In this document: piece after piece, positions 11,629-52,123 of the stretch | How positions within the stretch are numbered: position 1 is the stretch's first letter | Layout: every line of letters starts with the position of its first letter | Source: Promethearchaeota archaeon | GTDB taxonomy: Archaea; Asgardarchaeota; Lokiarchaeia; Sigyniarchaeales; SOKP01 | NCBI GenBank assembly: GCA_030606485.1 | Contig: JAUWGH010000005.1 | Coordinates: forward strand, 260,129-324,128 | DNA: 64,000 bases | Direction: 5' to 3' | Program-made: the position numbers and the translations under genes | The notes under the pieces: generated by a model | The model's database searches: none | What the model was told of the DNA's origin: nothing | What the model saw: the letters and a program-made list of their open reading frames with translations, nothing else

Positions 11629-13872
11629 ATGGTAAAAGTAAAAAATCCCGAAGAAATCCGGAGTCTAGTGATTAGCGGACCTTATGAGAAGAAAAGGATC
11701 TTCTCAATTGTTGCGCATATCGACCATGGGAAAACAACAACTACAGATTATCTTTTAGAAAGAGCGGGGCTTATGCGAGAAGAAGATGCAGGTCTACTCC
11801 TTGCGACCGACTCGGATGAAGAAGAACAAGAAAGGGGTATTACGATATTTACAAGCGTTGTATTACTTGCTTTTACTGATTCAAGAACCTCAGACGATGA
11901 GGAACCTTATATATTTATGATTAATGACACTCCTGGACATATTTCATTTACTGGTGAAGTATCACGTGCATTAAGGGCTTCAGATGGTTGTATAATCTTG
12001 GTAGATGCCTTGGAAGGAGTAATGACTCAAACTGAAACGAATATTAGATTAAGCGTTGGAGAAGAATTATGTAAGCCCGTTTTATTCATTAATAAAGTTG
12101 ACAGATTAATTAACGAATTAAAACTCAGTCCCAAGCAGGTTTATGAGAGAATAGATAAGATTCAAAATGAGGTTAATGAATTAATAAAAAAGATCGCCCC
12201 GAAAGGAATTGATTGGAGAGTTTCATTTCCAAATAATAGTGTTGCAATTGGTTCCGCGAAGGATGGTTGGGGCTTCACCCTTGCAATTCTTAATGAAAAA
12301 AATATTAAACCAACCTTTGTTTTTGAGAAATATAACGAAGGAGATATTGCATATTTGAGAAAGAATCTCAGATTAGATGAGGCTCTATTAAGAATGGTTG
12401 TAGATCATCTTCCAGATCCATTAACAGCATCAAAATATCGAATTCCAAAAATCTGGTCTGAAGGTGATTTAGATTCAGAACTAGGCCAAGCATTATTAAA
12501 TTGTGATCCAAATGGGCCGTTATATGGAATGATAACGAAAATATTTATTGATCCTAAGTCTTTTCGTGCAACTTTAATAGGTAGAGTATTTTCTGGGACG
12601 CTAAATGCTTCAGATTCAATATATTTATTAGGCAAAAAAGAAAAAGTACGGATAAAACGTTTAGGTGTTATGGAAATAACCGATATTTTAGATACTGGAA
12701 AAATCCCCGCAGGTAATCTTTTCGCAATATATGGTTTTATTTGTCCTACTGGAGAAACTTTCGTTGCAGCAAATATGGCACCAGCTAAGGGGGAATATTT
12801 CCCATCATTTGAGCAAATTAAATATGCTTGTGAACCTGTAGTATCACGAAGTATAAAACCAAAGGATCATCAAGATTTAGCAAAATTAGGAGAGGTTGTG
12901 CAAAAATGGTTAATGGCTGATACTACTGCCGAATTTAGATTAGATGAAGAATCTGGCGAATATATATTGTCTGGTATTGACCCTCTTCAGATAGATATTT
13001 TAACAAAACGTATTAATAAACAAGTACCAATTGAAGTTGGAGATCCGATTATTGTATATCGTGAGAAAATCGAAAAGTCAACCTCCAACGTTCATACAAA
13101 ATCTGCAAATGTTCACAACAAATTTCTTATGCATATTGAATCTCTTGATGATACTTCCTTAGAACTAATCATGTCGGGGAGAATTGGACAATATATGCCT
13201 GAGAAAGAGAGAGCAAAAATTCTTAGAGAAGAGGCTGGTTGGGATACAAAAGAAGCTAGAAGGATTGTAGATATATATAAAGGAAATGTTCTAATCAATG
13301 GAACGATGGGATTGCAAAGATTTAACAGAGTTAAATCTTATTTAGTTGCGGCGTTTCGCGATTGGACTCAAAGTTGCGTTTTAGCTAAAGAACCTGCTTT
13401 AGGTTTAAAAATAATTTTTACTGATATGGTTATTCACGAGGATCCAAGGCATACTCAATATAATCAAATAGCTGGGATGGTTTTTTCAGGTTTTTCCTTA
13501 GCATTTCTAAAAGGTGATCCACAAATGTATGAACCTATTCAGAGGGTCGATATTAAAACTCCCGCAGGGACGGAATCGGGTATCATTTCGATTTTAAACC
13601 AACATCGAGGAAAAGTTGTGAATGTTAGTTCTGATGCCGATTATGTGACAGTTCATGGTGAAATTCCTGCTTCGGAAACGCTAGGAATTGATGACGATTT
13701 TAGAGGTGCTACACAAGGTCGTGCCTTTTTTGGTTATGAATTTAAAGCGTTTGAAAGAGTTCCAACTAAAATGCAGGAAGAATTAATCTTGGATATTAGA
13801 AAGAGAAAAGGTATGAAGGTTGAATTACCGAATCCTAAGCCATGGGAACGTTTTATCTACAAACGAACTTAA
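11629..13872 (+). CDS. Elongation factor 2 family GTPase, paralogue with altered diphthamide loop
   Basis: Ribosomal translocase family. The G domain looks active: AHIDHGKTT at residues 29-37, RGITI 69-73, DTPGH 100-104, NKVD 155-158. Domains II-V follow in order and total length (747 aa) is normal for archaeal EF-2. At the tip of domain IV canonical EF-2 reads HEDxxHRGGGQI or HRGPAQI. Here it reads HEDPRHTQYNQI. The His that would become diphthamide (H608) is kept but the invariant Arg-Gly neighbours are gone. Several Asgard archaea are reported to carry a second EF-2 (aEF-2p) with such loss, so this is probably that paralogue rather than the main translocase (inference). It is a lone gene with a long leader and a T-rich tail. 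Confidence 0.9.
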   Translation: MVKVKNPEEIRSLVISGPYEKKRIFSIVAHIDHGKTTTTDYLLERAGLMREEDAGLLLATDSDEEEQERGITIFTSVVLLAFTDSRTSDDEEPYIFMINDTPGHISFTGEVSRALRASDGCIILVDALEGVMTQTETNIRLSVGEELCKPVLFINKVDRLINELKLSPKQVYERIDKIQNEVNELIKKIAPKGIDWRVSFPNNSVAIGSAKDGWGFTLAILNEKNIKPTFVFEKYNEGDIAYLRKNLRLDEALLRMVVDHLPDPLTASKYRIPKIWSEGDLDSELGQALLNCDPNGPLYGMITKIFIDPKSFRATLIGRVFSGTLNASDSIYLLGKKEKVRIKRLGVMEITDILDTGKIPAGNLFAIYGFICPTGETFVAANMAPAKGEYFPSFEQIKYACEPVVSRSIKPKDHQDLAKLGEVVQKWLMADTTAEFRLDEESGEYILSGIDPLQIDILTKRINKQVPIEVGDPIIVYREKIEKSTSNVHTKSANVHNKFLMHIESLDDTSLELIMSGRIGQYMPEKERAKILREEAGWDTKEARRIVDIYKGNVLINGTMGLQRFNRVKSYLVAAFRDWTQSCVLAKEPALGLKIIFTDMVIHEDPRHTQYNQIAGMVFSGFSLAFLKGDPQMYEPIQRVDIKTPAGTESGIISILNQHRGKVVNVSSDADYVTVHGEIPASETLGIDDDFRGATQGRAFFGYEFKAFERVPTKMQEELILDIRKRKGMKVELPNPKPWERFIYKRT

Positions 13873-49157: not shown

Positions 49158-50264
49158 TTATGAGATATTATTACAATAAAACTCCATCACATTATTAATT
49201 TGTGAGGACATGAAATTTTTTTTTCTAATAAATTTATCATAGATTGGTAGTCTCTCTTTCAACTCGAACCCTTCAGCTTTACAAATCTTTTTTAAATGTT
49301 CAATTTCTGGCCATGTTTTATAAGGATTTATTTCGTCTCTTGTAAATGGAGAAATACCTCCAAAATCATCTATTCCAACTTTTAAAAATTGTTTTTCATA
49401 ACCAGTAATTAAGTTTGGTGGAATCTGAATTTTTATCGAATTCTCTACTATGATTTTGGCAATTCCAGCTGTCTTGATAATATTTCCTATTGCAATTGGT
49501 GTTTTAGGATTATATCTTATATTCGGTTTTGAGATAAAATTTTGTATTATTATTTCTTGGATGTGTTCATATTCATCATTCAATTCCTTTATAAGAAATA
49601 AATCCTTTATCCGATCAATCATACTTTCCCCTATACCTAAAAGTAAACCAGTTGTAAAAGGTATTCTTAATTTCCCGGCATTTTTAATAAATTCAATCCT
49701 TTTATCTGGTCTTTTACCGGGACTTTCTTCATGAACATTACCTTTTTTAAATAACCTAGGTTGGGAACTTTCAAGCATAAGGCCCATACTCGCGTTATAA
49801 TCTTTTATTTGTTCTAATTTATCATAACTAAGATATCCTACATTCGTGTGGGGTAAAAATTCTTTAGATAATAATAATTTGCAAATATATAACAGATAAT
49901 CGAAAAATTGTTTAAATCCTCTGGATTTTAATCTTTTTTTAACTATTTGGAATTGATCTGGATGTTCTCCAGACATTATTAAAGCTTCCTTACAATTAAG
50001 TTGATGTGCTTTGGCCATTAACTTTTTAATTTTTTTTAAATCAAACAGTGTAATAATTTCATTTTGAGTTTTCATTCTATGATTGAAGTAGCAATAAGAG
50101 CAATTATTTATGCAATAATTTGATAATGGGATGGTGAAATTTTTTGAAAATGTTATAATATCTCTTTCATCATGTGGCAACTCATTTTTAATTTCTCTTA
50201 CTTTTTTTCTTATTTCTCTTAGAGATAATTTTGCTAATCCATTTATTGCCTCTATAAAATTCAC
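49158..50264 (-). CDS. cofG: F0 synthase subunit CofG
   Basis: Radical SAM 7,8-didemethyl-8-hydroxy-5-deazariboflavin synthase, which closes the deazaflavin ring on the CofH product. SAM cluster in CINNCSYCYF near residue 53. Further CofG markers are ALIMSGEHP near 97, PHTNVGYLSYDKL near 137, GLMLESSQPRL near 160 and GLLLGIGES near 206, with the late KVGIDDFGGISPFTRDEINP. The match is full length (368 aa). Start ATG 50264, two nt after the arfC stop. Confidence 0.95.
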   Translation of the reverse strand: MNFIEAINGLAKLSLREIRKKVREIKNELPHDERDIITFSKNFTIPLSNYCINNCSYCYFNHRMKTQNEIITLFDLKKIKKLMAKAHQLNCKEALIMSGEHPDQFQIVKKRLKSRGFKQFFDYLLYICKLLLSKEFLPHTNVGYLSYDKLEQIKDYNASMGLMLESSQPRLFKKGNVHEESPGKRPDKRIEFIKNAGKLRIPFTTGLLLGIGESMIDRIKDLFLIKELNDEYEHIQEIIIQNFISKPNIRYNPKTPIAIGNIIKTAGIAKIIVENSIKIQIPPNLITGYEKQFLKVGIDDFGGISPFTRDEINPYKTWPEIEHLKKICKAEGFELKERLPIYDKFIRKKNFMSSQINNVMEFYCNNIS

Positions 50265-52064: not shown

Positions 52065-52123
52065 ATTTAATGTTATTAAATTATTTTTAATTATAAATAT
52101 TTAAAAGGAAAATAAAAAATTAA

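Follow-up and report, generated by a model that had tools for sequence, protein, structure and literature searches.

Canonical, diphthamide-modified aEF-2 is represented by the structures 5h7j, 8hl1, 6q2d and 6u45. The window (the whole 64,000-nucleotide stretch that we analysed) carries an EF-2 gene whose product shares with them the five domains, the G motifs, both loop histidines and the fold. It differs from them in reading HTQYNQ instead of HRGPAQ, in the absence of dph genes and in its score against TIGR00490 (620 bits, E 4.9e-186), which is below the equivalog cut-off of 738.45. This places the window protein in the broader EF-2 family, outside the curated TIGR00490 equivalog. The main EF-2 of Asgard archaea lacking dph genes was reportedly described by Narrowe et al. 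in 2018. According to an excerpt of PMC10307638, which cites Narrowe et al. 2018, a second EF-2 paralogue that lacks key residues is encoded by many of the archaea in which the diphthamide genes are absent. The window gene has the same setting (Asgard, no dph, second EF-2) and, going by that excerpt, fits as the other, main copy in an already published dph-lacking setting. Among such main EF-2s, the window genus reads DPRHTQYNQ and many relatives DPAHTG; nothing essential differs. The aEF-2p resembles the window protein in being an Asgard member of the EF-2 family without the Arg-Gly context. However, it has lost the histidines and the loop, both of which the window protein retains.

The closest described intron system is the BHB intron of crenarchaeal cbf5 mRNA, which is cut between the second and third bulge nucleotide (PMC2738675, excerpt). 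The available part of PMC4810243 (2016) describes archaeal pre-mRNA introns as confined to Cbf5. The putative introns reported below for EF-2 genes of Asgard relatives share with cbf5, as far as the excerpt describes it, the BHB geometry, the cut positions and a protein-coding host. Unlike the cbf5 intron, they are 29-33 nt long, lie at several sites, all in GTPase motifs, and are very patchy. The window gene has none and is uninterrupted. The coordinates are collected in Table 1.

Table 1. Window EF-2 gene and the positions homologous to intron sites of its relatives (a slash marks the junction between two nucleotides)
Feature	Position in window	Strand	Basis, remarks or carriers
EF-2 gene, 747 aa, predicted main diphthamide-free translocase	11629..13872	+	ORF, profiles, fold
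G1 motif AHIDHGKT	11713..11736	+	uninterrupted in window gene
Relatives' G1 intron site (homologue)	11718/11719		L187, L190
Relatives' G1 intron site (homologue)	11731/11732		L192, L212, L213
G2/switch I TDSDEEEQERGIT	11806..11844	+	uninterrupted in window gene
Relatives' G2 intron site (homologue)	11811/11812		L060, L184
Relatives' G2 intron site (homologue)	11817/11818		nine genes
G3 motif DTPGH	11926..11940	+	uninterrupted in window gene
Relatives' G3 introns (paralogue or canonical EF-2)	just after DTPGH, slightly different places		L066-L068; L161, L171, L215
NKVD motif	12091-12102	+	intact in window gene
Rewritten diphthamide loop HEDPRHTQYNQI, codons 603-614	13435..13470	+	alignment reading
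His603 of loop	13435-13437	+	His603-Glu-Asp = 13435-13443
His608 of loop	13450-13452	+	HTQYNQI = 13450-13470
Thr609	13453-13455	+	Arg in canonical EF-2

The window protein exceeded the Pfam cut-offs for GTP_EFTU, EFG_III, EFG_IV and EFG_C; D2 (domain II) scored below its cut-off. With this sub-threshold domain II counted, it has the G domain motifs and domains II-V of an aEF-2 translocase. The G domain, described as intact in an earlier note on this DNA, does contain AHIDHGKT, DTPGH and NKVD. An AF2 model built from 23 sequences reached a pLDDT of 82.6 and a pTM of 0.71. In this model the loop lies between the strand 593-601 and the helix 611-628, with a confidence of 85-89 per ten residues; switch I is poorly defined (residues 57-75 below 50). 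The best Foldseek matches were the archaeal EF-2s 6u44, 6u43 and 6u45, with TM scores of 0.75-0.79.

The earlier note had placed a rewritten loop, HTQYNQI after HED, at 13425-13480. The loop is real, and 13435-13470 falls inside that span. The same HTQYNQI is present in the closest named relatives of the window protein, the Lokiarchaeal MAGs L008, L009 and L020, which are 96-98% identical to it. Each genome contributed one row per type to the loop reading, giving 84 rows of the window type, 59 of the paralogue type and 24 canonical ones. Three of the canonical rows are solved structures and one has no letters at the loop. The alignment leaves out 17 loci (fragments or duplicates), any row shorter than 500 residues and the named loci L008-L033 lacking a genome handle. 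His603, Asp605 and His608 were each present in 84/84 window-type rows. Residue 609 was Thr in 83 rows, Ile in one and Arg in 0/84; Gly610 was present in 41/84, and residue 611 was Tyr or Phe in 71/84. All 23 readable canonical rows carried His608, Arg609 and Gly610. The window protein has the modifiable tip-loop histidine of a diphthamide EF-2 (His608) and HTQ in place of the His-Arg-Gly context, so the note was right that the histidine is kept and its Arg-Gly context lost. To its canonical forms, HRGGGQI and HRGPAQI, a detail can be added: HRGPAQ was read in the three solved archaeal EF-2s and in Asgard relatives, which otherwise read HRGAGQ or, in one gene, HRGANQ. Because the HTQYNQI loop is common to three relatives and the 84/84 pattern runs through the clade, it is neither chance nor a sequence error. 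Both histidines and Asp605 are invariant while the Arg-Gly context is altered clade-wide, which suggests that the tip is constrained even without modification. The record L011 (WJJB01000174.1) encodes a window-type Asgard EF-2 that is 64% identical to the window protein; its title, Bathyarchaeota, is probably wrong.

A search for dph genes elsewhere in the genome had been proposed as a check. The genome of the window (13 contigs, rated 100% complete) gave no match to the profiles PF01866 (Dph1/2, E<=10), TIGR00522 (Dph5, E<=10) or PF01902 (Dph6, E<=1); it lacks Dph2, Dph5 and Dph6. Four archaeal control genomes exceeded the cut-off for each of the three profiles. Across the phylum, Dph2 was found in 21 of 227 genomes and an EF-2 match at E<=1e-30 in 217. 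A window-type match (E<=1e-180) was present in 166 genomes, a count made by reading the result tables, and Dph2 in 0/166 of them. Of the 21 genomes with Dph2, 20 had an HRG-loop canonical EF-2; in the remaining one, G165 (12% contamination), the search found no EF-2. The loops of canonical-type genes read HRG in 22/22, 20 of them from Dph2-positive genomes and two from G044 and G050, which are incomplete genomes without a Dph2 match. Dph2 and the HRG-loop EF-2 occur in families f8, f19 and f20, outside f15/f16, which we take to be Hodarchaeales. This differs from the statement, in the excerpt of PMC10307638, that among Asgards only Hodarchaeales kept dph genes.

The second canonical EF-2 that the note had suggested seeking is present only as a second EF-2: a gene on another contig (G000:C1:438332-440494), 34% identical to the window protein, which has lost both histidines and the loop. 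NISSKEEDSSISEL stands in place of the diphthamide loop, and domain IV scored 19.9 bits against a Pfam cut-off of 24. Across paralogue-type rows, His608 was kept in 1/59, His603 in 1/59 and Arg609 in 8/59. Some rows resemble a decayed canonical loop (L123 MRDPSQIIPM, L126 ERDPLQIIPM, L124 HRSPSNIVPM). The two genes stand adjacent and in opposite directions in G226:C137 (L129, L168), whereas in the genome of the window they are on different contigs.

The note had held that the window gene would be the main translocase if a complete genome had no other EF-2. Its own genome has two. However, the window type is the sole EF-2 at E<=1e-20 in seven Lokiarchaeia rated 92-99% complete (G105, G111, G114, G135, G136, G155 and G156). 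G112 and G113 are likewise near-complete and lacked the paralogue in the first search; the re-search at this threshold covered the other seven. Since it is their only EF-2, the window type is the probable main translocase, and ribosomal translocation by the window protein itself is inferred from these genomes. Taken together, the loop clade, the absence of dph genes, the exclusivity with Dph2 and the sole-EF-2 genomes point to a main EF-2 that has lost the Arg-Gly context, in a Lokiarchaeon without diphthamide, with the C1 gene as the aEF-2p. We put the probability of this reading at roughly 0.85; the TIGR00490 score below the cut-off and the five paralogue-only Lokiarchaeia described below count against it. 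The aEF-2p label that the note had given to the window gene does not hold, since the window type keeps both histidines (84/84) and is the sole EF-2 in seven relatives; the true paralogue is C1.

A tree of 65 chosen rows gave the window type as one clade (SH-aLRT 100) and the paralogue as another (96). The paralogue joined the canonical Asgard EF-2s (SH-aLRT 96), except for the G001 fragment, which stood at an open fork. This grouping is what one would expect if the real translocase were the C1 gene, as the closer of the two to canonical EF-2, and the window protein a specialised aEF-2p. That reading could also call on the retained Arg609 in 8/59 C1-type loops and on the five Lokiarchaeia in which only the paralogue was found (G097, G125, G128, G129 and G131; G131, rated 100% complete, was re-tested), although their paralogue-only state likely reflects assembly gaps. 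We consider it improbable: the C1 type has lost each histidine in 58/59 rows, sits on long branches, has in the own copy a domain IV under the Pfam cut-off and is absent from the seven near-complete genomes. It is marginally less probable still that both EF-2s translocate, each in its own conditions or with its own pool of ribosomes. The G domain is intact in the two proteins, and most listed Dph2-negative genomes have two matches, but the loss of loop and domain IV in the C1 type and its patchy absence speak against this reading.

In an AU test on 60 rows (five long or short rows dropped), a single clade of window type plus paralogue was not rejected (p-AU 0.101). Because this keeps the alternative clade, we place no weight on the order of duplication. 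By the free tree, it looks as though the canonical gene gave rise to the loop-less paralogue, with the window type as an ancient lineage of its own that has taken over. The C1 gene is best explained as a loop-less, dispensable relative that serves a different ribosomal task. As to this task, recycling or aIF6 release would be a guess. EF-2 releases aIF6 in Sulfolobus (PMC8024482, excerpt), and this release could be divided between EF-2 and the paralogue. An Efl1-like origin of the paralogue received no support: its best PDB matches were archaeal EF-2s, and EFL1 (5anb) scored far lower.

We propose that the window EF-2 would still bind GTP and the ribosome and translocate through domain IV. The Arg-Gly context that Dph enzymes recognise would have been swapped a single time, in the clade's common ancestor, for Thr and a usually aromatic residue 611, and His608 would stay at the tip as a plain, presumably unmodified histidine. 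The tip would enter the decoding site, where unmodified side chains may hold the codon-anticodon helix through loop-RNA contacts; the Tyr or Phe at 611 may fill the space left by diphthamide. This result settles which Lokiarchaeal EF-2 most likely works as the translocase, and a single His-Thr loop clade without diphthamide offers a clean natural experiment on the purpose of the modification. TYW1 beside EF-2, considered as compensation for the lost diphthamide, was rejected: it was near EF-2 in 3/26 loci, all from near relatives of the window.

Among the listed matches, 13 window-type genes had internal stop codons, and all 13 carried 30-nt insertions. For each interrupted gene we listed all 15-59 nt excisions that restore the G1, G2 or G3 motif and took the best BHB score. 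By this test, 17 introns passed, with 1-3 possible excisions each; their 16 host genes comprise 13 of the window type and three canonical ones from f19. The best excisions of all 17 had a perfect 4-bp central helix (wobble allowed) and cuts after the second bulge nucleotide. The inner helix had at least 8 pairs in 16/17 and 4 pairs in L186. A further five introns came from the four paralogue genes L161, L171, L212 and L213 and from the canonical gene L215. The total is 22 putative introns of 29-33 nt in 21 genes, which explain 21 of the 22 interrupted EF-2-family genes. The carriers are L052, L060 and L183-L193 (main EF-2, Lokiarchaeia), L066-L068 and L215 (canonical) and L161, L171, L212 and L213 (paralogue). 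Over the whole set the central helix was 4/4 in 22/22 and the inner helix, with one mismatch allowed, had at least 8 pairs in 21/22; the outer helix was weak in many. A first BHB scan required an outer helix of at least 2 pairs; most G2 introns, whose outer helix is weak, escaped it, and the junction-first test took its place.

In composition-preserving shuffles of 17 introns, the observed score was reached in 0-1 of 2000. The splicing endonuclease family PF01974 was present in 10/10 genomes tested, with two copies in 8. The EF-2 introns of the relatives are computed predictions, and we hold it very probable that they are spliced. The interruptions might instead be stop readthrough, assembly errors, pseudogenes or ribosome hopping, of which phage T4 gene 60 is said to be an example. 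The interrupted paralogue of G149 (L105, L214) would suit such an account, as no BHB excision accounts for its single in-frame TAG. Overall it is very unlikely: the motif-restoring excision has exact BHB geometry in 22/22, shuffling reproduces the score at most once in 2000 (17 introns tested), and the introns lie at five sites, with the one-contig genome G120 among the carriers. A literature search of titles and abstracts found no report of EF-2 introns, most subscription papers and preprints being outside its coverage, and the EF-2 BHB introns look newly recognised.

Seven distinct G2 introns had 93.4% of cells paired, versus 28.6-48.4% when slid, and two pairs showed double changes. In shuffles, the covariation score was reached in 10/500 and the count of double-change pairs in 54/500, so covariation is suggestive only. 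BHB-like motifs by themselves are common: uninterrupted genes totalling 368,612 nt contained 1918, and the window 127 plus 138 (later rule). For this reason, a match counted only if its excision also mended the reading frame. Of the matches in the window, two were judged chance. One (49165-49193, minus strand) falls where two separate radical-SAM-like ORFs, presumably CofG/CofH-like, adjoin; the other, near 52094, falls where another ORF begins.

Placed on a 54-gene tree, the 13 carriers require 12 changes, and the nine at 11817/11818 require nine. The L052 intron matches those of L188 and L193 in 30/30 nt, although identity is 76.6% and 75.5% between the genes and 83-84% between the local exons. 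A pattern of the 11817/11818 intron family gave 9 matches in 227 genomes, all at that EF-2 site, and the reversed control gave 0. These data are consistent with Asgard EF-2 mRNA being a hot spot for BHB introns (29-33 nt; G1, G2 and G3) that the tRNA-splicing endonuclease would remove and that would spread by site-specific transfer rather than by descent. We give this reading even odds, and horizontal spread is a less sure part than splicing. The distribution could come from many losses or from intron transfer into the same site, and helix constraint likewise keeps introns alike. If the introns are spliced, the essential EF-2 would join cbf5 as a BHB-interrupted archaeal protein gene, in the closest archaea to eukaryotes. 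Gene callers and EF-2 marker-gene trees may be cutting or dropping the interrupted genes.

In genome G101, both EF-2 (L192) and the paralogue (L212) carry an intron at the same P-loop HGK site.
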